A stretch of 64,000 nucleotides of DNA from NCBI RefSeq assembly GCF_004339675.1, contig NZ_SLVM01000005.1:1-64000 (forward strand), given 5' to 3'. Shown piece after piece: positions 45,401-58,169 of the stretch. The notes beneath the pieces were generated by a model that saw only the letters and a program-made list of their open reading frames with translations, did not search any database and had not been told where the DNA came from. The number at the start of each line of letters is the position of its first letter. The first letter of the stretch is position 1. The translations under genes and the position numbers were made by a program. Origin of the DNA: Rhodovulum steppense (GTDB lineage Bacteria; Pseudomonadota; Alphaproteobacteria; Rhodobacterales; Rhodobacteraceae).

Positions 45401-46118
45401 CCAGCGCAAGATCGGCGCCGAAATTCGTCAGCGGCCCAGCCCCCGCCAGCGTCAGCGCAACCGGCGGGCCGCCCGGCAGCCCCAGAAGGCCCGAGACCAG
45501 CCCCCCCGCCCCCTCGGTCAGCGCGATGTCGAGCGCAAGGTCGCGGCTTTCGTTGGCATAGGAAGCCACCACCGCAAAGCGCCCCTCGGCATCGCTGCGC
45601 GTCGCGCTCAGATCGACCGCACCCGCCCCGCCCGCCAGCCGCAGCGCGGCCGTGATCGCAAGTTCGGCCGACTGGCCCAGCACTGCCTCGCCCAGTGCCA
45701 GCCGGGGCGTCGCGACCTCGCCGATCTGGATCGCAACGGGCAGGTCCGGCAACTGGAAGGGCTGCGCCTCGGCATCCTCGACCCGGGCGCCCTGATCGCC
45801 CACGGGGAGCCGGGTCAACTCGATCTCCTCGGCGCGCAGGCGGTTCACCTCGACCCGGCCGCGCAAGAGCGCAGCGCGCGACCAGTCAAGCTCGGCCCCG
45901 CGGATCGTCAGCCAGACCCCTTCGGCATCGGCAATGGTCAGCGTATCGAGCCTAGCCTGCGACGAGAGCGCGCCGCGAAAGCCGGTGATGTCGATCTCGC
46001 GCCCGGCCGAGGACAGCCGGTCGGCCAGGAACCGCTCCAGCAGGCTGCGGTCATCGTCTTGCGCGGCCAGCGGCTGGGCGGCGGCGATCATCAGGACAAG
46101 GGCAAGCCGCAATCGCAT
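42414..46118 (-). CDS. tamB: Translocation and assembly module subunit TamB
   Basis: This 1234-residue protein is a long beta-taco (AsmA/DUF490-type) periplasmic bridge. A short signal or anchor (LRLALVLMIAAAQPLAAQ) precedes about 1150 residues of repetitive beta strands, and the C-terminal DUF490 ends in VTVRGRLGAEGDTGIGIFYERDY. It works with outer-membrane TamA in the export of autotransporters and, by newer work, phospholipid transport. The ATG shares its A with the TGA of tamA (TGATG). Composition is strongly biased to Ala, Gly, Arg and Leu. Confidence 0.93.
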   Translation of the reverse strand: MRLRLALVLMIAAAQPLAAQDDDRSLLERFLADRLSSAGREIDITGFRGALSSQARLDTLTIADAEGVWLTIRGAELDWSRAALLRGRVEVNRLRAEEIELTRLPVGDQGARVEDAEAQPFQLPDLPVAIQIGEVATPRLALGEAVLGQSAELAITAALRLAGGAGAVDLSATRSDAEGRFAVVASYANESRDLALDIALTEGAGGLVSGLLGLPGGPPVALTLAGAGPLTNFGADLALATDGVQRVTGRFTLDEPADSPGTARFALDIAGDVAPLVAEQARPFFGDAARVQLAGTRRADGGTELSRLDLETGALTLGGTLTLAPSGLPERLALDGTLTGPVALPLAGPETRVDGAQLTARFDAALGEEWQAEAVLDGLAREGLALGRAAIAGSGTIRPVSPTALTADLTFVATGLAHDDPALARALGDALRGTARIVHAEGADLRLDALRLDAGGLRATASGTLGALRAGLPLDGQAELALDDLARIAPLTGAALGGAAEARVQGRYGLLDGVFDLRLAADTRDLTTGTPRLDPLLAGVGRLSLAAARGPAGTALRALAIEMSALRLTAEGELSTAAAGLRLSGEVRDLARVDGRLSGPGSIEAGLGWEEGGRIRIDRLEATGAGARLTATGAVSPDDPALPGEGRVTLAARDLAPFSGLAGRPLRGSLDATLTGAGALRGDLRAELDARGQGLALGLGAIDRLIGGESRISARGARRDGAPMIEALDLSTPVLRVSATEAGGGALTLSGRLSDLALLAPGFPGPLTVTGRAQPGNGDVRLALDATGPGGTTARLAGSLALDGARADLTASGTAPLALANGFIAPRSLDGQARYDLALRGPLALSSLSGRAVTEGARLALPTLGLAVTDIAGSVALADGRAQIDLGGAFDGRGRVTVAGPVILAAPFDGDLAIALDRARISYDTLFETRLDARLSMRGPLAGGAGIAGRIDLGRTEIAVPSGGATASGPIPDVVHIGESAASRATRARAGLLGGAGREGGGRPYPLDLTILAPGQVFVRGRGLDAEVGGTLRLRGTTADMIPDGRFDLIRGRLDILSRRFDLTEGQVSLQGALDPYLRFVAATQTGDITARIQLDGRASAPEIRFLSDPDLPEDEVLARLLFGRGIEQLSAFQAVQLATAVAGLAGGNGGGLLGRVREGTGLDDLDLRQTADGETEVSVGKYLSDDLYSEVTVDGAGQTRIELNFDLSPQVTVRGRLGAEGDTGIGIFYERDY

Positions 46119-47935
46119 CAGAAGGCCTGCCCGATGCCGATATAGATCTGCACGCCATCCCCAGTGCCGCCGCCCACGGGTGCCGCGATATCCACCCGGA
46201 TCGGGCCGATGCCGGTATCGTAGCGCAGCCCCAGCCCCGCGCCCGAATGCCAGTCGCCCTCGCCAAGCCACGACTCCGCGCCGACGAATCCCGCATCGGC
46301 AAAGGCCACCAGACCGATACTGCCGCGCACCGCCACCCGCGCCTCGGCCGACAGCCCGACGAAGGACCGCCCGCCGATCCGCTCGCCGCCGGGCAGATCG
46401 ACCGCCAGCGACTGGTAGGGCTGGCCGCGCACCGTGCCGCCGCCGCCCGAGAAGAACAGCAGCGCGGGCGGCACGCCCTCGGCCCCCGCGCCGAGGATCG
46501 AGCCGAATTGCAGCCGCCCCGCCAGAACCACCCGTTCGCCCATGCCGCGATAGAGCCGTGCATCGGCCGTCAGCCGCGCGCCGCTTTCGGCCTCGCCCCC
46601 CAACGCGAGGAAGGGCATCACGCCAAGGCCCAGATAGCTCCCGCCCGTGGGGTTCAGCAGGTTGTCACGGTCGTCCCTTGTGGCCGAGACCGGCAGCATC
46701 GCATGGGTCATGCTGCGGCTGCCCAGACCGTCGCGCACGTCGGAATAGCTGAACAGCAGGGCCGCCTCGCCCGCCAGGCGTTTCGACAGCGTGCGCGTCA
46801 GCCCGATACCGAACCGGGCGGTATTCTCGCGGGAATCGGGCTCGTCCAGACGCTCGATGGCGGCCAGCGCAAAAAGTCCCGTATCGGGGCCGATGAAGGC
46901 CGGGCGGTCAAGGCGCAGGGCCAGCCGGTAATCCTCGCCGCCGCCTTCGGTGCCGCCGATCCCCGAGATCGCAGCGTCGAAGCGCAGCCGCTCGGCCCCG
47001 CCCATCAGGTTGCGATGCAGCCAGAAGGCCGACAGCGCGACACCTTCGAGCGAGGACAGCTCGGCGCCGAAACCCAGCCGACGCGGCTTGTCGTCGGTGA
47101 CGTTCAGCGTGATGTCCATGCGCCCGTCCGGGTCCAGCGTCTCGGCCTCGGCCAGGCTGATCGAGCGGAAGGCGCCTGTGCGGCGCAGCCGGTCGGCGCT
47201 GCGCTCCAGCGCCTCGGGATCGAAGCGTTTTCCAGTGGGTAGCCCGGCAATCGCCCGCAGCCGTTCCGGCCTTACCGCCGTGCGCCCGGCGATCACCAGA
47301 TCGCCGAACTGCACCACCGGCCCGGGCACCAGCCCCAGCCGCGCATCAAGCGTGGCACCGGGATGATGCGCGGTGATGCGCTGTTCGCCCACGCGTGCCT
47401 TGGCATGGCCTGTCGCGCGCCAGCCCGTGACGCCCGCCGTTGCGGCATCGCGAATCGCGGTGCTGCGCGCGCGCTTGCCTGGGGCGAAGCCCTCGGGCAA
47501 TTCGGTGCCCCGCGCCAGTGGGGCGATCTGCGCCGTGGAAAAGGCGAAGGGGCGGCCGGTTTCGATGTCGATCTCGACGCGCGAAATCCTGTCGGGCAGC
47601 GACAGCGGCGAGATCTCGGTCGCCTCTCGCCCGTCGAGCCGAATGCGGATGATCGGTGCGTAATAGCCGCGCGCATAAAGCGCCCCGATCAGCCGGGCGT
47701 AATCGGCCCGGGCGGCGGCAAGGATGTCCTGCGCGCTGGCATCCGCCCCTTCGGCAGCCTCAAGGCTGAGCGCAGAAGCCCTGAGCGCGTCGCGCAACCC
47801 GTCCGATGCGCCGGGCGCGGACAGCCGCACCTCGGCCGCCAGCGCGGGCGGCGCGGCGAGCGCCAGCGCAAACAATGCTGCAAGCGTTGGGGATTTGTTC
47901 GATTCGGCCAAGTCGCGCCCCCTGTCGCCGCCCAT
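46118..47935 (-). CDS. tamA: Translocation and assembly module subunit TamA (Omp85)
   Basis: A 605-residue outer membrane protein with a signal peptide (TLAALFALALAAPPALA), POTRA-like repeats (about residues 35-270) and a 16-strand Omp85 barrel. The barrel's L6 loop is in the GGGGTVRGQPYQ region, VRGY-like, and the protein ends in Phe, as required for insertion by BAM. ATG 47935 opens the frame; TTG 47908 (LAESNKSPTL) behind GGGGG is a good alternative. It is coupled to tamB. Confidence 0.93.
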   Translation of the reverse strand: MGGDRGRDLAESNKSPTLAALFALALAAPPALAAEVRLSAPGASDGLRDALRASALSLEAAEGADASAQDILAAARADYARLIGALYARGYYAPIIRIRLDGREATEISPLSLPDRISRVEIDIETGRPFAFSTAQIAPLARGTELPEGFAPGKRARSTAIRDAATAGVTGWRATGHAKARVGEQRITAHHPGATLDARLGLVPGPVVQFGDLVIAGRTAVRPERLRAIAGLPTGKRFDPEALERSADRLRRTGAFRSISLAEAETLDPDGRMDITLNVTDDKPRRLGFGAELSSLEGVALSAFWLHRNLMGGAERLRFDAAISGIGGTEGGGEDYRLALRLDRPAFIGPDTGLFALAAIERLDEPDSRENTARFGIGLTRTLSKRLAGEAALLFSYSDVRDGLGSRSMTHAMLPVSATRDDRDNLLNPTGGSYLGLGVMPFLALGGEAESGARLTADARLYRGMGERVVLAGRLQFGSILGAGAEGVPPALLFFSGGGGTVRGQPYQSLAVDLPGGERIGGRSFVGLSAEARVAVRGSIGLVAFADAGFVGAESWLGEGDWHSGAGLGLRYDTGIGPIRVDIAAPVGGGTGDGVQIYIGIGQAF

Positions 47936-47989
47936 ACTGGTCCAAGCGGCGCAGGGATTGAAGGCCGAAGCGCGGAAACGTGATGCCGC

Positions 47990-49402
47990 TCAGGTCGAGC
48001 GACGCTCGGCACCGAAAACCTTTTGCGCAACAAGCGGGTAGGCCACCACGACCGTCACGACAAGAAACAGCAATTCGGCCCCATAGACGAAGAAATAGGG
48101 CGTTGCCGGGCCGAACAGCCCCGAGAAGGGCGACAACAGGATCAGGTCACGCGCGATCCCGCCCAGCGCGATCGCCACGCCTGCCGACGTGGCCTGCACT
48201 GCGCCCCAGGCGCCCAGCGCAAGGCCGACCTGCTCCTTCGGGGCGGCGCGCATGGTGGCGGTCAGGGTGCCGTGACTGAACAGCCCCGCCCCGAACCCGG
48301 CCAGCCCCGTGCCGATGATGAAGATGGCCGGGCTTTGCAGCGTGGCCGAGAAGGTGATCAGCGCAAAGGCCGGCACCCCCACCAGCGCCCCCGCACCCGC
48401 CATCACCATCGGATCGGCGCCGCGGCTGAGCACGCGCGAGGCCAGCGCAAAGCCGATCAGCCCGCCCATCGCCAGCGTTGCGGTCAGCCGCGTGGTCGAG
48501 GCGACGGACATTCCCAGCACCTCGCCGCCATAGGGCTCCAGCAGCACCTCGGCCAGACCGAAGCCCATCGTGCCAAGCCCGATGATCCACAGCAGCCGAC
48601 GTGGATTGGCGCCGCGCATGAACAGCCCCCAGGCATCCGAGAAACTGGGGTCGGGCTCGGGATTGACGCGCTGGCGATAGGCCCGCTCGCGGTCGCGCGC
48701 CTCCATCTTCCAGATCGCAAGAACGTTGAAGACCAGCGTCATCACCGCCGCGCCCTGGATCACCTGGATCAGCTTGGGATGGCTGAAATCCTCCAGCAAC
48801 CTGCCGAAGATAAGAGCACTCACGATCATGCCGACCAGCATCATCACATACATCAGCCCGACCACATTGGGCTGATCCTCGCGGGGTGCCAGATCGGTGG
48901 CCAGCGCAAGCCCGACGGTCTGGACGATATGCACGCCCGCCCCCACAAGCAGGAAGGCGAGCGCCGCGCTGACAAGACCGACCCAGAGCGGCGCATCGGC
49001 CGCGAATTGCTGTTGCGACAGCACGATCAAGGCCAGCGGCATGATCGCGAAGCCGCCCCATGCCAGCAGCGTGCCCTTCCAGATATAGGGCACGCGGCGC
49101 CAGCCAAGGGCAGATTTGTGGGTGTCGGACTTGAACCCGATCAGCGCCCGGAACGGCGCGAACAGCAGCGGCAGCGCGATCATCACGCCGACGATGGTGG
49201 CAGGCACCTCGAGTTCGACGATCATCACGCGGTTCAGCGTGCCGACCAGCAGCACCATGGCCATGCCGACCGACACCTGGAACAGGGCAAGGCGCAACAG
49301 ACGCGACAGGGGCAGATCGTCGCTGGCCGCCTCGGCAAAGGGCATCACACGCATGCCTGCGTTAGCGATACCCTGGATCGCCATCCGGCTAAGTCGATTC
49401 AT
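47990..49402 (-). CDS. pucC: PucC: light-harvesting complex assembly MFS protein
   Basis: A 470-residue 12-helix major facilitator of the PucC/LhaA/BCH2 family. It is required for assembling bacteriochlorophyll into LH2. Signature segments are LLRLALFQVSVGMAMVLL, FRALIGFKSDTHKSALGWRRVPYIW, VGAGVHIVQTVGLALATDLA and AAPKEQVGLALGAWGAVQATSAG. The ATG at 49402 has GGAGAG upstream. It lies 157 bp downstream of pucA beyond a stable hairpin, the usual puc layout in which pucC message is less abundant. No pucDE follows; tamA comes next. Confidence 0.95.
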   Translation of the reverse strand: MNRLSRMAIQGIANAGMRVMPFAEAASDDLPLSRLLRLALFQVSVGMAMVLLVGTLNRVMIVELEVPATIVGVMIALPLLFAPFRALIGFKSDTHKSALGWRRVPYIWKGTLLAWGGFAIMPLALIVLSQQQFAADAPLWVGLVSAALAFLLVGAGVHIVQTVGLALATDLAPREDQPNVVGLMYVMMLVGMIVSALIFGRLLEDFSHPKLIQVIQGAAVMTLVFNVLAIWKMEARDRERAYRQRVNPEPDPSFSDAWGLFMRGANPRRLLWIIGLGTMGFGLAEVLLEPYGGEVLGMSVASTTRLTATLAMGGLIGFALASRVLSRGADPMVMAGAGALVGVPAFALITFSATLQSPAIFIIGTGLAGFGAGLFSHGTLTATMRAAPKEQVGLALGAWGAVQATSAGVAIALGGIARDLILLSPFSGLFGPATPYFFVYGAELLFLVVTVVVAYPLVAQKVFGAERRST

Positions 49403-49500
49403 GCGGTCGCTCTCCGCACGGCGCGACGCGTCGCGGCCGTATTCCGATTGCCCGCGGGCGCGCGTTTCCACGTGTCAGGCCCTGACGGGAGGGCCGAGAT

Positions 49501-49559: not shown

Positions 49560-49742
49560 TTAGGCCGCGTCGGCTTCCGTGGTGGTGACCACGGCGGCGT
49601 CTTGCTTGTAGTAGTCGGCGAAGAAGCCGGACTGGGTCACGAGGCCCAGGTGGACCAGGAACGAGCTGATGGCAACGGCGCTCAGGAAGAGCGGGATGCC
49701 GACGGTCGGCTTAACGACGAGCCAGAGTTTCGCGTTGTTCAT
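49560..49742 (-). CDS. pucA: LH2 antenna alpha polypeptide
   Basis: The 60-residue alpha apoprotein of B800-850. One membrane helix with His31 as ligand to B850 bacteriochlorophyll (FLVHLGLVTQ), KLWLVVKPTVGIPLFL at the cytoplasmic end, and Tyr44-Tyr45 in ADYYKQ. The Tyr pair hydrogen-bonds the acetyl groups of B850, so an 850-nm (not 820-nm) absorbing complex is predicted. GAGGAG ribosome site. It lies 15 bp behind pucB. Confidence 0.96.
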   Translation of the reverse strand: MNNAKLWLVVKPTVGIPLFLSAVAISSFLVHLGLVTQSGFFADYYKQDAAVVTTTEADAA

Positions 49743-49757
49743 GAGTTGGTACTCCTC

Positions 49758-49913
49758 TTAGCCGAGCCACGGCGTGCCGACGGCAGCCAGGAAGTGCGCG
49801 ACGAGCGCGATGGCGCCGAACACGCGGGTGCCATCGATCACTTGCTTGTGGACTTCTTCGGCTTCGGCCAGCGTCAGGCCGGTCGGCCAGACTTTGTTGG
49901 GATCGTCAGTCAT
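49758..49913 (-). CDS. pucB: LH2 antenna beta polypeptide
   Basis: The 51-residue beta apoprotein. His22 (EEVHKQVID) and His40 (LVAHFLAAV) are the conserved histidines; His40 ligates B850. The segment [14 protein letters not shown] is close to PucB of Rhodobacter sphaeroides, and the protein ends in GTPWLG. A GGGGAG site precedes ATG 49913. First gene of the pucBAC operon. Confidence 0.96.
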
Positions 49914-50302
49914 ATTGTCGTCTCCCCAATATGGTTTCGACTGCGTTGGCGTGCAGAACCTGCACCTCTTCGACAACACCAGACCGGTCAACCGCTTCCA
50001 CTTTCATGTCCGCGACGCTGCCGGTCCAGCCTCGTCACTTAGAAACGATGTCACAAGCGATTGACGTTGGCAATGTCAACGTAGGCTTACAGAGGCCCCG
50101 GATCGTGCGGCATATTGAGCAGCCCTGACAGCCTGTCGCAGGAGTCGCAGCCCCACGGCCTGCGACCCTGCGGACCCTTGATCTTGGCGCCTGCGGATGG
50201 GGTAATCGGGGTGCCAAACTGCAACTGTCGTTCTTGTTGGACCGGAACCAAGCTTTCGCATCCGACGGCGACACAGACCCTGAAAAGAACTCTGGAGGAA
50301 CG
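49914..50302. promoter_or_regulatory. Divergent puc / repeat-protein control region
   Basis: The region separates pucB (minus) and the repeat-protein gene (plus). It holds one perfect PpsR box at 50073-50090 and a near match TGT-N12-ACG at 50048-50065 (25 bp apart). On the minus strand TTGACA (50078-50073) overlaps the box and would be a fair -35. On the plus strand a weak TTGATC / GGTAAT pair lies at 50178-50206. No gene is seen in it. Confidence 0.6.
50073..50090. promoter_or_regulatory. pucB promoter: PpsR/CrtJ binding site (TGT-N12-ACA)
   Basis: TGT at 50073 and ACA at 50088 are 12 bases apart, the exact consensus for the aerobic/light repressor PpsR (CrtJ). It overlaps the probable -35 hexamer of pucB. 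A second, imperfect site lies 25 bp closer to pucB, and PpsR normally binds pairs of sites. Confidence 0.75.
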
Positions 50303-50629
50303 ATGAACACCTATCCCTGGGACGCCTGGATGCCGAAACTCGCAGCCAACCAGCACATGACCGATGTCAAGATCGACCGCAGCAAGAGCACCACGATGTT
50401 CTCGGACGCGTTGGGCGTCGCGCTGCTGTCGGACAAGAAACCGAACATCGAGTTGAAGACGTCGAACCCGACGCCGCTGTCCAGCAAGATGGGCTGGGAT
50501 CTTCTGGGCGGTAAGGGCGAAGGCAATGTCGTGCTGACCACCGCCGAGCCCTACCCGCTGTCCGCGCGCATGGGCTGGAAGCTGCTCAGCGAGCGCAAGT
50601 ACTACGCCATCGCAGCGCACCAGCAATAA
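50303..50629 (+). CDS. Small repeat protein A (T-P-L-S repeat family, unknown function)
   Basis: A 108-residue protein not recognised as any known family. Residues 31-56, 57-83 and 84-99 are three copies of a 26-27-residue unit with the core T/Y-P-L-S (first copy TMFS), followed by M-G-W and L-L-S/G. The N terminus (MNTYPWDAWMPKLAANQ) is rich in aromatic residues. There is no signal peptide, membrane helix or cysteine. The ribosome site is excellent (GGAGGAA). The gene is divergent from pucB across a PpsR box. A second protein with the same unit is encoded at 57900-58169. PucE, the LH2 gamma subunit of R. capsulatus, was considered but cannot be confirmed. Confidence 0.8.
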   Translation: MNTYPWDAWMPKLAANQHMTDVKIDRSKSTTMFSDALGVALLSDKKPNIELKTSNPTPLSSKMGWDLLGGKGEGNVVLTTAEPYPLSARMGWKLLSERKYYAIAAHQQ

Positions 50630-50645
50630 GCCTGAACGACGCCCC

Positions 50646-50680
50646 GACGCCCGCGCCGACCCAAGGTCTGCGCGGGCGTC
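50646..50680 (+). terminator. Terminator-like hairpin after repeat protein A
   Basis: GACGCCCGCGC (50646-50656) pairs with GCGCGGGCGTC (50670-50680), an 11-base perfect stem 17 bp after the stop codon. Only two T residues follow directly. Confidence 0.65.
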
Positions 50681-50796
50681 TTGCATCTGGTCCCCCGGAC
50701 AAGCCGCAAGAACCGGGGATTGACCATGGGAACGGGCCGACCCAGGCGGACCGGCCCTTCGAATTTTCTGGCCTGTTTCCGAAGGCGGCCGCGCCC

Positions 50797-51219
50797 TCAG
50801 CCGACCAGTTCGAGGCCCGAGAAGAAATAGGCGATCTCGACCGCGGCGGTGTCCTCGCCATCCGAGCCATGCACCGAATTCTCGCCGATCGACAGCGCGA
50901 ATTCCTTGCGGATCGTGCCCTCGGCCGCCTCGGCGGGGTTGGTGGCGCCCATCACTTCGCGATTCTTCGCGACCGCATTCTCGCCTTCCAGCACCTGCAC
51001 GACGATCGGTTCGGAGGCCATGAACTCGCACAGTTCGTCATAGAAGGGGCGCTCCTTGTGGACGGCATAGAACACGCCGGCCTGCGCCTTGGTCAGGTGG
51101 ATGCGCTTCTGCGCGACGATGCGCAGGCCCGCTGCTTCGAGTTTCGCGTTGATCGCGCCGGTCAGGTTGCGGCGCGTCGCGTCGGGCTTGATGATCGAGA
51201 AGGTGCGCTGGATCGCCAT
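50797..51219 (-). CDS. ndk: Nucleoside diphosphate kinase
   Basis: A 140-residue enzyme that moves the gamma phosphate between nucleoside triphosphates and diphosphates. The active-site histidine lies in the NSVHGSDG segment, and the N-terminal [15 protein letters not shown] and the [19 protein letters not shown] region are fully conserved. ATG 51219 has AAGGAC; the longer open frame upstream is not Ndk-like. It is divergent from the ABC-F gene. Confidence 0.95.
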
Positions 51220-51349
51220 GTCGGATGTCCTTGTGTGCTGCGGCACCCCCGCGCGGGGGTGCGGGAAAAATCGCGGCCCTGCTAGCATGGGGCCTGTCCG
51301 GTGAAAAGCCGCGATTGACGGCACGCGGCGGGGCTGGCACTGACCGCGC

Positions 51350-53191
<1,842 letters not shown>

Positions 53192-53192
53192 C

Positions 53193-53813
53193 TTGGACCC
53201 GACCTTCTACATATCGGCCTTTGTCACGCTGTTCGTGGTGATCGACCCGATCGGGCTGGCGCCGCTCTTCGTGGCGCTGACCCAGGGCATCGACTCGCGC
53301 GCGCGCCGTGCCATCGCGTTCCGCGCCGCCGCCATCGCCATCGGCCTGCTGACGCTGTTCGGCATCTTCGGCGAACAGGTGCTGGGATTCGTTGGCATCT
53401 CGATGCCCGCCTTCCGCATCGCGGGCGGGATCCTTCTGTTCCTGACCGCGCTTGACATGCTGTTCGAACGGCGCACGAAACGGCGCGAGGATCAGGCGCA
53501 CGAGGATCGCCCCGATCCGTCGGTCTTTCCGCTGGCAACGCCGCTGATCGCGGGGCCCGGCGCAATGGCGACGATGATCCTGCTGATCGGCGCGGCCGGG
53601 CGCGAACCGGTCGCGATGGTGCTGATCCATCTGGTGATGCTGGCGGTGATCGGGGTCGTGCTGCTGATGTTCCTGGCGGCCGGGCTGATCGAACGCGCGC
53701 TGGGGCGGACCGGAATCAACGTGGTCACGCGGCTTCTGGGGATGCTGTTGGCGGCCTTGTCGGTGCAGTTCGTGCTGGACGGGTTGCGCGATTTCGGGCT
53801 TGCGCCGGTCTGA
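53193..53813 (+). CDS. MarC-family membrane protein
   Basis: A 206-residue protein with six predicted helices. LFVVIDPIGLAPLFVALTQG, RIAGGILLFLTALDML and VFPLATPLIAGPGAMATMIL are the two conserved halves of MarC/UPF0056. Not the antibiotic-resistance gene it was once thought to be; function unknown. TTG 53193 is two bases after the stop of the ABC-F gene, with GAGG nearby; starting here puts the first helix directly at the N terminus. Confidence 0.87.
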   Translation: MDPTFYISAFVTLFVVIDPIGLAPLFVALTQGIDSRARRAIAFRAAAIAIGLLTLFGIFGEQVLGFVGISMPAFRIAGGILLFLTALDMLFERRTKRREDQAHEDRPDPSVFPLATPLIAGPGAMATMILLIGAAGREPVAMVLIHLVMLAVIGVVLLMFLAAGLIERALGRTGINVVTRLLGMLLAALSVQFVLDGLRDFGLAPV

Positions 53814-53872
53814 CACCCTCGCGATTGCGGGGCCGGTCCCTATATCCGGAAAAGGAACCAGAAAGGAAGGCC

Positions 53873-54454
53873 ATGGACGGCGACAGCCTTGCAAGACTGC
53901 TTTACCTCGTGCTGCTCGGCTCGGCGATTGCCGGGTATTTCTTCGTCGCGAACCGCCACCGTCTGGGCCAGGTCGCGCAACAGGCGGCGATCTGGGGGCT
54001 GATCTTCGTGGGCGTGATCGCGGGTTTCGGGCTGTGGTCGGACATCCGCCGCGACGTGGCCCCGCGTCAGGAGGTGTTCGCCGATCAGGCCCGTGTCGAG
54101 GTGCCCCGCGCGCCGGACGGGCATTACTACCTGACGGTCCGGATCAACGGCGCGCCGGTACGATTCGTGGTCGATACCGGCGCGACGGACGTGGTCCTGA
54201 CCCGGCGCGATGCGCAGCGGGTGGGGCTTGACCCCGATGCGCTGGACTATATCGCCGAGGCGCGCACTGCGAACGGTGTGGTGCGCACCGCGCCGGTGCG
54301 GCTGGATCTGGTGGAACTGGGACCGATCGAGGATCGCGGCGTCCGCGCCTTCGTCAATTCGGGCGAGATGCGGGAATCGCTGCTGGGCATGGGCTATCTC
54401 AACCGCTTTGCACGGATCGAGCTTGTGCGCGACCGGATGATCCTGACCCGCTGA
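53873..54454 (+). CDS. Retropepsin-like membrane aspartic protease (TIGR02281)
   Basis: A 193-residue protein with two N-terminal membrane helices (about 7-25 and 39-55) and a single-lobe aspartic protease domain. The active-site motif is DTGA at Asp101 in FVVDTGATDVVLT; the SLLGMGYLNRF segment closes the flap side. It dimerises like retroviral protease. Found widely in Alphaproteobacteria with unknown substrate. An AAGGAAGG ribosome site precedes ATG 53873. Confidence 0.88.
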   Translation: MDGDSLARLLYLVLLGSAIAGYFFVANRHRLGQVAQQAAIWGLIFVGVIAGFGLWSDIRRDVAPRQEVFADQARVEVPRAPDGHYYLTVRINGAPVRFVVDTGATDVVLTRRDAQRVGLDPDALDYIAEARTANGVVRTAPVRLDLVELGPIEDRGVRAFVNSGEMRESLLGMGYLNRFARIELVRDRMILTR

Positions 54455-54460
54455 GGGTGC

Positions 54461-54919
54461 TTAGCCCCCGCTGTCGCGCCGAATCTCCCAGCGCCCCGAG
54501 TCCTCGGACCAGTATTGCGCGCGCAGCCCTGCCCCGGTCAGTGTCCGCCATTGGCCGCGCGCCGCCTCGACCGCGCCGGGATCGTTGCCGTCGAACAGGA
54601 TGCAGACCCGTTCCATCGCCGCGGCCTCTTGCGGTGTGACCTGCGCGCCATCGACCGCCATCAGGCAGACCGCCCCGTTCGGGATGTCGGCGCCCGTGGT
54701 CAGCAGAACCGGCTGATCGGCGTCGAACGCGCCCCCCGCCCGGCCGTGCGGCAAGAACCCGTCGCCCTGCCACAGCCGTTCGTCCAGCCAGTCAAGCCGC
54801 CCGGCATCGCCCCCCCGCACCACGACACGCCAGCCCTGCGCCAGCGACTTGTCCAGAAGCGCGGGCAGCGTCGCCTCGATCGGGCGGCGGGTGAGGTGAT
54901 AGAACATCGCGATGCCCAT
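54461..54919 (-). CDS. holC: DNA polymerase III subunit chi
   Basis: A 152-residue protein of the HolC family, linking the clamp loader to SSB. FYHLTRRPIEATLPALLDKSLAQGW is the conserved N terminus, with LDWLDERLW and the VCILFDGNDPGAVEAARGQWRTL segment after it. ATG 54919 (MGIAMFYHLT) fits relatives; ATG 54907 is possible. The stop lies six bases from the convergent aspartic protease stop. Confidence 0.87.
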   Translation of the reverse strand: MGIAMFYHLTRRPIEATLPALLDKSLAQGWRVVVRGGDAGRLDWLDERLWQGDGFLPHGRAGGAFDADQPVLLTTGADIPNGAVCLMAVDGAQVTPQEAAAMERVCILFDGNDPGAVEAARGQWRTLTGAGLRAQYWSEDSGRWEIRRDSGG

Positions 54920-55039
54920 GCCCCGATGAAAGACCGGCCCGGACAACCGATTGCAAGCGGGAATCGCACGGGGCGCATCCCGCACTGGCCAGACACATTC
55001 AAATCTGTCTATGCTTGCGTCAAAAGGGAGGAGACAACC

Positions 55040-55984
55040 ATGATCCGCAAGGCACTATTCTGCGCCCTGCTGGCCGCACCCGCCTTCGCCAGCGAGGACA
55101 TCCCCGACAAATACCCGCAGTCGGTGCTCTATTCGAAGCCCGTCGAAGTGATCCCCAATGTCTTCTCGGCCATCGGCGCCACCGCGCCGCCCACCTACGA
55201 AAACGCGGGCCACAACAACAACCTGTCCTTCCTCGTCACCGGCGACGGGGTGATCGTCGTCAACGGGGGCGCCAACGCGAAACTCGCAGAGGCGCTGCAT
55301 GCCGAGATCAGGGCCGTCACGGACCAGCCCGTGCGACTGGTCATCAACGAGAACGGCCAGGGCCATGCGATGCTGGGCAACAGCTACTGGGCGGCGCAAG
55401 GCGTCGACATCGTGGCTCATGTCGAGGCGAAGACCGTGTTCGAGGACAATTCCTTCCAGATCCTCGAAGGCATGAAGCGTTACGCCCTCGAAAACGCCGA
55501 AGGCACCGAAGCGGTGGGCCCCACCATCACCTTCGAAGACCGCTACGACATCGAGATGGGCGGCATGAAGATCGAGGTTCTCTATCTCGGCCCCGCCCAT
55601 TCCGAGGGCGACGTCTCGGTCTGGTTGCCCGACGAACGGCTGGTGATCGCGGGCGACATCGCGTTCCACGAGCGCATGCCGCCGATTTTTGCCGAGACCT
55701 GCACAAGCTGCTGGATCGAGACCTGGGATACCGCCTTCGAACCCCTGGGCGCGCTTTACGTCATCCCCGGGCACGGCCATCCCACCAACATGGCCCAAGT
55801 CCGCCGCTATACCCGCGATTATCTGGTCTATCTGCGCGAGCAGATCGCCGAACATATCGATTCTGGCGGAACACTCGACGACGCCTATTATGTCGACCAG
55901 AGCCCGTTTGCGCATCTCGACACGTTCGAGGAACTGGCGACAAAGAATGCAGGCATCGTCTACACGGAAATGGAGTTCGAATGA
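55040..55984 (+). CDS. Secreted metallo-beta-lactamase-fold protein with degenerate metal motif
   Basis: A 314-residue exported protein (signal peptide 1-17, ALFCALLAAPAFA). The MBL fold is clear from NNNLSFLVTGDGVIVVNGG, the AHSEGDVSVWLPDERLVIAGDIAF segment and VIPGHGHPT near the end. The H-x-H-x-D-H zinc motif is replaced by N-G-Q-G-H-A (residues 105-110). A single-metal or altered site, or a non-catalytic role, is likely. Related forms stand with redox or sulfur-oxidation genes. The next gene's start overlaps the stop. Excellent GGGAGGAG ribosome site. Confidence 0.85.
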   Translation: MIRKALFCALLAAPAFASEDIPDKYPQSVLYSKPVEVIPNVFSAIGATAPPTYENAGHNNNLSFLVTGDGVIVVNGGANAKLAEALHAEIRAVTDQPVRLVINENGQGHAMLGNSYWAAQGVDIVAHVEAKTVFEDNSFQILEGMKRYALENAEGTEAVGPTITFEDRYDIEMGGMKIEVLYLGPAHSEGDVSVWLPDERLVIAGDIAFHERMPPIFAETCTSCWIETWDTAFEPLGALYVIPGHGHPTNMAQVRRYTRDYLVYLREQIAEHIDSGGTLDDAYYVDQSPFAHLDTFEELATKNAGIVYTEMEFE

Positions 55985-56541
55985 TGGCCGTCTCGACCCC
56001 CATCTGCGATTTCGGCTGGAAAGCTCCCGCTTTCTCGCTGCCCGGCACCGACGGGCGGACCTGGACGCTGGAGGATGTGCGCGGACCCAAGGGCACGCTG
56101 ATAATGTTCATCTGCAATCACTGCCCCTATGTGATCGCGGTGCGCGACCGGATCATCCGCGATGCGCGCGATCTTCAGGCGCTGGGAATCGGGGTGGCCG
56201 CGATCAGTTCGAACGACGCCGCCACCTATCCTGCCGACAGCTTCGAGAACATGCAGCGGCTTGCGCAGGAACTGGCGCTTCCGTTTCCGTATCTCTATGA
56301 CGAGGATCAGTCGGTCGCAAAGGCGTATGACGCCGTCTGCACCCCGGATTTCTTTGGCTTCGATGCCGGGCTGGGGCTGCAATATCGCGGGCGGCTGGAT
56401 GCCTCGCGCAAGGAGGCGGGTCCGCCGGATCTGCGCCGCGACCTTTACGAGGCGATGAAACAGGTGGCCGAGACCGGCCAGGGACCGCAAGAGCAGATCC
56501 CGTCGATGGGCTGCTCGATCAAATGGAAGGACGCCGCGTGA
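55981..56541 (+). CDS. Thioredoxin-fold redoxin (AhpC/TSA type)
   Basis: A 186-residue cytosolic redoxin without signal peptide. The redox centre is C45-N-H-C48 in FICNHCPYV, and the PAFSLPGTDGRTWTLEDVRG opening is typical of the AhpC/TSA/redoxin group with a CxxC site. ATG 55981 overlaps the TGA of the MBL gene; ATG 55984 follows directly. The next gene starts inside its last codons. The string of overlaps suggests one transcript from 55040 to 57895. Confidence 0.87.
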   Translation: MMAVSTPICDFGWKAPAFSLPGTDGRTWTLEDVRGPKGTLIMFICNHCPYVIAVRDRIIRDARDLQALGIGVAAISSNDAATYPADSFENMQRLAQELALPFPYLYDEDQSVAKAYDAVCTPDFFGFDAGLGLQYRGRLDASRKEAGPPDLRRDLYEAMKQVAETGQGPQEQIPSMGCSIKWKDAA

Positions 56542-57200
56542 AGGCCATCATCTTCGACCTCGACGGAACGCTGATCGACAGCGCGCCCGACATCCATGCA
56601 GCCGTCAACCGCACGCTGGCCGAGACCGGCGATGGCGAACTGCCGCTGGACACCATCCGCGGCTTCATCGGCAATGGCGTGCCCGTGCTGATCGAGCGGG
56701 TGATAGCAGCGCGCGGGCTGGACCCGGCGCGGCAGGCGGCGATGGTGGAAACCTTCATGCGCCATTACGAGGCCGACCCGGCCACGCTGACCACGCTGTT
56801 TCCCGGCGTCAAGGATGCGGTCGAACAGTTCCGCGACGAAGGCTGGGCGATGGGGGTCTGCACCAACAAGCCCGAGGCCGTCTCGCGCGCGATTCTCGAC
56901 CGGCTGGGGATCGGCCCCTATTTCGGAACGGTGGTCGGCGGCGATACACTGGACGTGAAGAAACCCGATCCTGCCGTCGCGCTGGCTGTCAAGGAACGGT
57001 TGGGCGCGACGGTGGCGGTCTATGTCGGCGACAGCGAGATCGACGCGGAATGCGCATGGAAGGCGGGGATGCGCTTTGCCCTCTTCACCGAGGGCTATCA
57101 CCGCGCCGATGACGTGGACGACATCCCGCAGGATGCGCGCTTCTCGGATTTCGACGTTGCGGTGGCCATCGTCGCCCGGCTGGCCGACGAGCTGCGATGA
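56538..57200 (+). CDS. gph: Phosphoglycolate phosphatase
   Basis: A 220-residue HAD phosphatase with FDLDGTLIDSAPDI (nucleophile Asp and acid/base Asp), CTNKPEAVSR (motif II), KKPDPAVAL (motif III Lys) and YVGDSEIDAECAWKAG (motif IV). It removes phosphate from 2-phosphoglycolate, a by-product of Rubisco oxygenation and DNA repair. GTG 56538 overlaps the redoxin stop (GTGA) and has AAGGA upstream; ATG 56523 would add five residues. Confidence 0.9.
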   Translation: MKAIIFDLDGTLIDSAPDIHAAVNRTLAETGDGELPLDTIRGFIGNGVPVLIERVIAARGLDPARQAAMVETFMRHYEADPATLTTLFPGVKDAVEQFRDEGWAMGVCTNKPEAVSRAILDRLGIGPYFGTVVGGDTLDVKKPDPAVALAVKERLGATVAVYVGDSEIDAECAWKAGMRFALFTEGYHRADDVDDIPQDARFSDFDVAVAIVARLADELR

Positions 57201-57895
57201 GCCTGCGGGCGCTGGTCTTCGACGTCGACGGAACGCTTGCCGAAACCGAAGAGGCGCATCGGCGGGCGTTCAATGACAGTTTCGCGGCCTGGGGCCTTGA
57301 CTGGTCCTGGGACCGCGAGGCGTATCGCCGCCTGCTGCGCACCACCGGCGGCAAGGAACGGATGCTGGCCTTTCAGGCCGGCCTGCCCGACGGGGCGGCG
57401 CGGCTGAGCGACGATGAGATCGCGCAATTGCACCGCGAAAAGACCGCCCGCTATGGCGAGATACTGGCCGCGGGCGGTCTGGCGCTGCGCCCCGGCGTGG
57501 CCGAGTTGATCGCCACCGCGCGGGATGCGGGGCTGCGTCTGGCGGTTGCGACCACCACCAACCTGCCCAATGTCGAGGCGCTGGCGCGCTGCTGCTGGGG
57601 ATGCGCGGCGCGCGAGGTGTTCGACGTGATCGCCGCGGGCGACGAGGTGGCGGCCAAGAAACCCGCGCCCGATGTGTTCGACCTGGCCCTTGCGCGGCTG
57701 GCGCTGGACCCCGATGCCTGCCTTGCCTTCGAGGACAGCCGCAATGGCCTGCTCTCGGCCATGGGCGCGGGGCTGCCGGTGATCGTCACCCCCAGCGCCT
57801 ATACCGACCACGAGGATTTCACCGGCGCGGCGCATGTCCTGCCCACGCTCGAGCGCGCGCATTGGCCCGCCCCGCTGGCCGCCATCGCGGGCTGA
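57197..57895 (+). CDS. HAD-family hydrolase, CbbY/beta-phosphoglucomutase type
   Basis: A 232-residue HAD protein. FDVDGTLAETEEAHRRAFN carries the catalytic aspartates, ATTTNLPNVEAL is motif II, KKPAPDVFDLAL motif III and AFEDSRNGLLSAMGAGL motif IV. CbbY enzymes of Rhodobacter dephosphorylate xylulose-1,5-bisphosphate, an inhibitor of Rubisco; specificity here is inferred. ATG 57197 overlaps the gph stop (ATGA). Together with gph it could repair Calvin-cycle by-products. Confidence 0.86.
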   Translation: MSLRALVFDVDGTLAETEEAHRRAFNDSFAAWGLDWSWDREAYRRLLRTTGGKERMLAFQAGLPDGAARLSDDEIAQLHREKTARYGEILAAGGLALRPGVAELIATARDAGLRLAVATTTNLPNVEALARCCWGCAAREVFDVIAAGDEVAAKKPAPDVFDLALARLALDPDACLAFEDSRNGLLSAMGAGLPVIVTPSAYTDHEDFTGAAHVLPTLERAHWPAPLAAIAG

Positions 57896-57899
57896 GGGC

Positions 57900-58169
57900 T
57901 CAGCGCAGCGACAGGAACCGCTTGCCCGTCCTCAGCCGCATCCCCGATTTCCGGCGCGAGATCATCGGGAAATAGAAGAACGACGACAAGGGCGTGGGCC
58001 AGTCGGTGTTCAGCCGCGTTGTCGATGCCTTGCGCGACACCATCGGCAGCCCAAAGAAATCCGAGAACGGCGTGGCGCTGTTCCGGTCCAGGTGCCAAGT
58101 GTAATCGCTCATCACATAGTCGAAGGGGGCCACACTCTTGATGAAGGTGGAATCCTGCTTGCCTGCCAT
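57900..58169 (-). CDS. Small repeat protein B (T-P-L-S repeat family, unknown function)
   Basis: An 89-residue very basic protein. Residues 33-58 and 59-84 are two copies of a 26-residue unit: T-P-F/L-S, then F-F, a P-M-V/I-S triplet and R-K, a T/R-rich stretch, and W-P at the end. The preceding LDRNSA matches IDRSKS in front of the first unit of protein A. No signal peptide or membrane helix. The ribosome site AAAGGAAA is very good. Adjacent to the CbbY gene (convergent, 4 bp apart). No known family is recognised. Confidence 0.78.
   Translation of the reverse strand: MAGKQDSTFIKSVAPFDYVMSDYTWHLDRNSATPFSDFFGLPMVSRKASTTRLNTDWPTPLSSFFYFPMISRRKSGMRLRTGKRFLSLR

Follow-up and report, generated by a model that had tools for sequence, protein, structure and literature searches.

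A family of small tandem-repeat proteins linked to the light-harvesting 2 genes of Rhodovulum

The stretch of Rhodovulum steppense DNA analyzed here (contig NZ_SLVM01000005.1, positions 1 to 64,000, referred to below as the window) contains a puc locus coding for light-harvesting complex 2 (LH2) together with two small genes, termed A and B, that code for tandem-repeat proteins. On the minus strand are pucB coding for the LH2 beta subunit (49758 to 49913; Pfam PF00556 LHC, E 4e-9), pucA coding for the LH2 alpha subunit (49560 to 49742; Pfam PF00556 LHC, E 2e-7) and pucC coding for an LH2 assembly factor (47990 to 49471; Pfam PF03209 PUCC, E 7e-152). Protein A is encoded by a 108-residue open reading frame (ORF) on the plus strand (50303 to 50629) and protein B by an 89-residue ORF on the minus strand (57900 to 58169). 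A unit profile divides A into an N-terminal segment (residues 1-28) followed by three units (residues 29-53, 55-80 and 82-99) and places two units in B (residues 31-55 and 57-81). The units are 25-27 residues long, with the 25-position consensus dPTPlSsxmgwpLLSxrxsxveLxT.

A and B are homologous to each other as judged by BLASTP (E = 5e-8, 37% over 51 residues) and by a Smith-Waterman score of 75 that was reached by none of 20000 shuffles of B. Internal repetition is strongest at a lag of 27 residues in A and of 26 in B, with none of 1000 shuffles reaching the observed value in either case. Each protein also retrieves the other in a search of their own genome, and no Pfam or NCBIfam model matches either of them at E-values of up to 10. 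This bears out a preliminary description of the window, made from its sequence, in which A and B were read as one repeat family of three and two units with no recognized domain. That description also assigned both genes very strong ribosome sites, which are GGAGG for A and AAGGA for B, and a shared I/LDR-x-S lead-in, which does not hold since this segment varies among A orthologues. Among the six closest pairs, A has ratios of nonsynonymous to synonymous substitution rates of 0.19-0.27 and B has ratios of 0-0.35; the medians over all pairs, where substitutions are numerous, are higher, at 0.50 and 0.46, respectively. A and B are thus real, fast-evolving genes under purifying selection. Each unit contains one invariant serine (in TP[LF]-S), present in 158 of 158 units spanning this position, out of 160 units aligned from 55 proteins. 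There is no strongly hydrophobic segment in A or B, with the best 19-residue hydropathy of A being 0.46 versus 2.03 for PucA. AlphaFold2 models exhibit short helices only, with a predicted local distance difference test (pLDDT) value of 46 and a predicted template modeling score of 0.13 for A and a pLDDT of 45.6 for B, from shallow alignments of 10 and 3 sequences.

The window genome contains not just the two dispersed genes of the preliminary description but four family loci, with A and B being joined by the paralogues C (contig C1) and D (contig C26). A match of B on contig C27 (E 0.14) was discarded, as by reading of the locus it falls in no likely gene. All 16 of the Rhodovulum genomes searched contain the family: each has an A-like gene and C, 14 have B and 8 have D. 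The unit profile counts between 2 and 5 units across the family. In the nearest relative, R. tesquicola, A is 95% identical. One genome (G010) has a second A-like gene located away from puc as well as a five-unit protein that we assigned to C rather than D; A in this genome and in R. imhoffii (G009) was assigned from the N-terminus. Note that reaction-centre genes are present in 16 of 16 Rhodovulum genomes, so the presence of the family cannot be correlated with phototrophy within this genus. Nine related loci occur among genome contigs, eight of them titled Rhodovulum and one a Rhodobacteraceae metagenome-assembled genome. In 15 of the 16 Rhodovulum genomes A adjoins pucB-pucA-pucC and is transcribed away from pucBAC.

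Profile A1, composed of 25 Rhodovulum proteins of the A/B family, was searched against 385 genomes of the class, 394 Rhodobacteraceae genomes (393 genera) and 196 genomes of the order at E <= 0.001, with all genome-search E-values being per genome. Two Rhodobacteraceae genomes were matched, both Rhodovulum, and in the order the only match was the window's own genome. In the class there were seven non-Rhodovulum genomes with matches. The neighbors of these class matches were examined after the search, the profile itself being blind to gene neighbors, and in 7 of 7 cases the matched gene, X, codes for a protein of 220-246 residues and immediately follows pucBA on the same strand. In six of the seven, pucC is downstream of X (once after a second pucBA pair), and in the seventh pucC is located ~2.3 kilobases (kb) further on.

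A second profile, A4, made from these seven X proteins, matched 11 non-Rhodovulum genomes of the class, 10 of which have X beside pucBA (8 on the same strand, one divergent in G610 and one convergent in G613). The match in G838 was set aside, as it is to the N-terminal domain alone with repeats and puc absent from the stretch of the locus examined. When searched against the 394 Rhodobacteraceae genomes at E <= 0.01, A4 matched 30 genomes, composed of 2 Rhodovulum and 28 others, and in 24 of these 28 X is located directly after pucC on the same strand (one locus each, with two copies in G274). The matches in G027, G354, G177 and G153 (E 0.0035-0.006) are likely chance matches, with no puc in the DNA examined, no repeats by eye and two of the four falling in an ORF that by eye is sulfhydrylase-like. 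Genome G063 has a second A4 match on another contig (E 0.0038). A separate observation is that two loci (L111 and L126) exhibit the order pucBA-X-pucBA-pucC, with X between two antenna gene pairs. Another is that the second X after pucC in G274 (L147:8566-9678) contains ~8 units of the form M-A-[ND]-[WF]-P-I-P-L-[LI]-S-[DR]-R-K-P, which by eye is the form nearest to the Rhodovulum unit.

In the reverse direction, A4 returns A, B, C and D of the window genome with E-values of 1.9e-5 to 0.0023. Profile-profile comparisons, which also included A3 (orthologues of A only) and A5 (16 of 25 Rhodobacteraceae X proteins, aligned), gave 97.9% for A1-A4 (E 5e-13), 97.8% for A3-A4 (E 8e-13), 96.1% for A1-A5 (E 3e-9), 99.3% for A4-A5 (E 3e-20) and 95.5% for A3-A5, and in each of these five comparisons none of 100 column permutations reached the observed score. 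X and A/B therefore have homologous units, and X is puc-linked as is A, with the difference that most X genes are on the puc strand whereas A is divergent from puc, as is X of G610. Because profiles of the family retrieve relatives beside pucBA or pucC, the family is tied to LH2.

The N-terminal domain of X weakly resembles YflT, with matches that fall short of the curated cut-off in 3 of the 7 X proteins and 3 of the 16 Rhodobacteraceae X proteins (best E 0.0013). This would be expected if the family consisted of disordered, stress-type proteins that are near puc by chance. We consider this highly improbable, as linkage to puc is seen repeatedly, in several arrangements and in different families, and as the Rhodovulum proteins do not contain that N-terminal domain. 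NCBIfam yielded a chance-level match only for the 7 X proteins and none for the 16 X proteins of A5. A search of PDB sequences gave no match for A or for profile A4. The PDB matches of B, A1, A5 and one X protein were dismissed as being at chance level, and a match of another X protein to Pizza6 (E 0.007), located in its N-terminal domain, was likewise taken as chance.

LH2 is a textbook antenna that is usually described as being composed of alpha-beta pairs only. The closest described protein to A is the gamma subunit of LH2 from Rhodopseudomonas (Rps.) palustris (PucA-LH2-gamma, RPA1495; 97 residues, PDB 7zcu chain S). According to passages of the paper describing it (PMC9618040), gamma is a ribbon without a regular fold that lies near the cytoplasmic side around six of the nine alpha-beta pairs, with each of its six repeats ligating one bacteriochlorophyll via a serine. 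These passages also report that gamma is present in purified Rps. palustris LH2 and that, by BLASTp, it was found only in Rhodopseudomonas. A resembles gamma in being small and in having tandem units with one serine per unit. Gamma has no regular fold and is a part of LH2; for A, the models from a shallow alignment show no fold, and a place in LH2 is proposed. The preliminary description proposed an undescribed system, which is too strong given that the gamma described in these passages works in the way proposed here for A, even though clear homology between the two is not established. Proteins of the A/B family were not found described in titles and abstract beginnings of the literature, a scope that leaves subscription literature mostly outside, and their genes are not mentioned in passages of a Rhodovulum RNA sequencing paper (PMC9230146).

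We also compared the family with gamma at the sequence level. When gamma was used as the query against 17 genomes, it retrieved one protein, the X located between pucBA and pucC of G760, with an E-value of 0.0065 per genome, a match for which ~0.1 is expected by chance over the 17 genomes. Among the 10 X proteins from outside of the Rhodobacteraceae, using unit patterns that were written after inspecting the sequences, the gamma kind of unit, S-x(0,1)-G-x-P-L-[LIK], has 9 matches in 7 of the 10 proteins (shuffled mean 0.1). The loose Rhodovulum kind, S-x3-G, is matched 39 times and occurs in every one of the 10 (shuffled mean 4.1). Only one of the 10 contains the strict Rhodovulum form, S-x3-[GN]-W-P. 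The mean gamma-X alignment score was reached by 2 of 400 unit-permuted gammas, and for groups B, D and C the observed score was reached by 1, 7 and 32 of 400, respectively. Sequence homology of the family to gamma is marginal at best. That A works like gamma is a fair inference; that A is a gamma does not follow.

Our favored explanation, to which we assign a probability of roughly 0.55, is that A serves the LH2 antenna as an accessory subunit similar to gamma. A would have little structure of its own and would follow the cytoplasmic rim of the LH2 ring as a ribbon, with each 25-27-residue unit docking on one alpha-beta pair, such that the three units of A would cover three pairs. The invariant serine may ligate bacteriochlorophyll, which is conjecture, or may hold the ribbon on the ring. 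B and the other two paralogues would use the same unit, their target being either LH2 or some other light-harvesting or membrane component. Gene neighborhood and homology argue for a pigment-ring role of A, and the low pLDDT with only short helices is what would be expected of a ribbon. The preliminary description had suggested that the repeats bind a repeated ligand such as pigment-protein rings, membranes or nucleic acid. From this list pigment-protein rings suit A, given its position divergent from pucBAC and its relatives beside puc, and nothing points to nucleic acid.

Several results weigh against this explanation. A of R. imhoffii lies on a different contig from pucBAC, with no A in the 0.78 kb upstream of pucB, and none of B, C and D is an immediate neighbor of puc. 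A1 alone missed the Rhodobacteraceae X proteins at E 0.001, and the N-terminal domain of X (~100-120 residues) is missing in A and B, to which A4 aligns only from profile position 90 on. Gamma is composed of six 16-residue units of the form S-G-x-P-L-I versus three units of 25-27 residues in A, and the gamma-type unit, of which gamma itself has 6, occurs in none of the 55 Rhodovulum proteins and none of the 16 Rhodobacteraceae X proteins. Comparison of gamma with the family profiles by hhalign gave just 0.2% for A1, 0.3% for A5 and 3.8% for A4 (E 0.011), with the score being reached by 18, 9 and 1 of 100 permuted controls, respectively. For A, the alignment with gamma does not stand out from those with unit-permuted gammas, of which 51 of 400 reach the score. 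Finally, low pLDDT values also follow from shallow alignments.

The position of these genes next to pucBA or pucC would also be accounted for if A and its puc-linked relatives helped in LH2 assembly, keeping newly made alpha, beta or bacteriochlorophyll close to PucC and dissociating from the finished ring. Transient binding of this kind is well served by a disordered multivalent protein, and passages of PMC9618040 describe LH2 of Rba. sphaeroides as having no gamma subunit. However, one invariant serine per unit in tandem copies resembles a structural ribbon, and the gamma of Rps. palustris occurs in purified LH2 (PMC9618040, in the passages cited), such that we regard the assembly role as rather unlikely. 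At least one of A and B probably either wraps around LH2 or helps build it.

Regarding other known systems, LH1 gamma of Blastochloris is a transmembrane helix, unlike A, which has no strongly hydrophobic segment. PucE/PucD of Rhodobacter capsulatus, an LH2-associated protein of about 14 kDa encoded downstream of pucC, would share its position with the Rhodobacteraceae X genes. Like the role proposed for A, that of LH1 gamma is as an accessory antenna polypeptide (PMC10212510).

A wider and more tentative view, which is possible though we would not favor it, is that ribbons with bacteriochlorophyll around LH2 constitute an antenna layer that is general among alphaproteobacteria and evolves fast, encoded in the layouts pucBA-X-pucC, pucBAC-X and divergent. 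The number of units would set how many alpha-beta pairs and extra pigments are covered, and the Rhodovulum ribbon would have lost its N-terminal domain and been divided among as many as four genes of 2 to 5 units, each under its own control, that tune the antenna. If true, LH2 of many alphaproteobacteria shares an accessory layer that has escaped notice because it is disordered, repetitive and fast-evolving, and an additional antenna subunit, until now described in a single genus, becomes widespread. The family could also account for the apparent restriction of gamma to one genus, since short repeats can be missed by BLAST.

The region between pucB and A contains a TGT-N12-ACA sequence on the plus strand (50074 to 50091), which presumably is a site of the PpsR/CrtJ type. 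It overlaps a TTGACA on the pucB side and is inside a block conserved across species, with this block seen in an alignment of 10 of the 15 puc-linked loci and the sequence itself upstream of A in 14 of the 15 puc-linked genomes (missing in G010). Located ~100 bases nearer A is a putative promoter of A, TTGATC-N17-GGTAAT (50178 to 50206, plus strand), that is predicted from conservation; TTGA and GGGGTA are kept in 10 of 10 aligned loci, and GGTAAT is complete in 9 with one row cut there. By itself, TGT-N12-ACA occurs in the window about as often as chance predicts (4 sites versus 3.3 expected) and it is missing in the 330 bases that precede B, C and D, so we rejected it as a sign of common control and only its conservation beside puc counts. 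On the other side of the operon, an ORF for an Omp85/POTRA outer-membrane protein (46118-47989) directly follows pucC on the same strand.

As for the remaining paralogues, B has an M20 peptidase gene as its neighbor in 11 of the 14 genomes that contain it; 10 of the 14 B loci have no puc gene within ~4 kb and in the other four (G000, G004, G007 and G008) puc is ~7-8 kb away. C in the window genome is near a Tad-like gene, a TetR gene and a gene that by eye is homoserine dehydrogenase-like, and the neighbors of D are conserved only among close relatives. Both C and D end in a conserved C-terminal tail with [TS]-G-E-[VP]-[QE]-K. This tail, together with the multivalent character that 2 to 5 units confer, would suit proteins that organize photosynthetic membranes, with the units of one chain bridging LH2 rings, LH2 and the reaction centre-LH1 complex, or the membrane surface. 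We consider such a role improbable, as the sequence gives no sign of a second partner and as the intracytoplasmic membranes of R. sulfidophilum are, in passages of PMC6030561, nonrestricted like those of Rba. sphaeroides.

C has two Pfam matches, to TPP_enzyme_M_2 (E 5e-4, 20.3 bits versus a cut-off of 30.1) and GLOD4_N (E 0.027), that were taken as chance because both scores are under the curated cut-offs. A phage or plasmid origin of the family was also rejected, with tblastn giving no match for C in phages and none for D or two Rhodobacteraceae X proteins in plasmids, with no relatives of A found in viral contigs and with only weak PHROG matches for C and D. Two further features of C were observed. 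In three genomes (G013, G006 and G004; loci L073, L074 and L075) the C protein has a second, unrelated tandem repeat of approximately T-[FMY]-T-N-P-Q-V-E-T-K before the family units. In addition, the 5' leader of C genes (L014 upstream of 7963 and orthologous loci), which reads GACGCGGCGAAAAATCACCTTG ... TTGGTGGACAGGATCAA ... AGGTGGA, is strongly conserved with small variations in 10 of 11 aligned loci and is a possible regulatory element.

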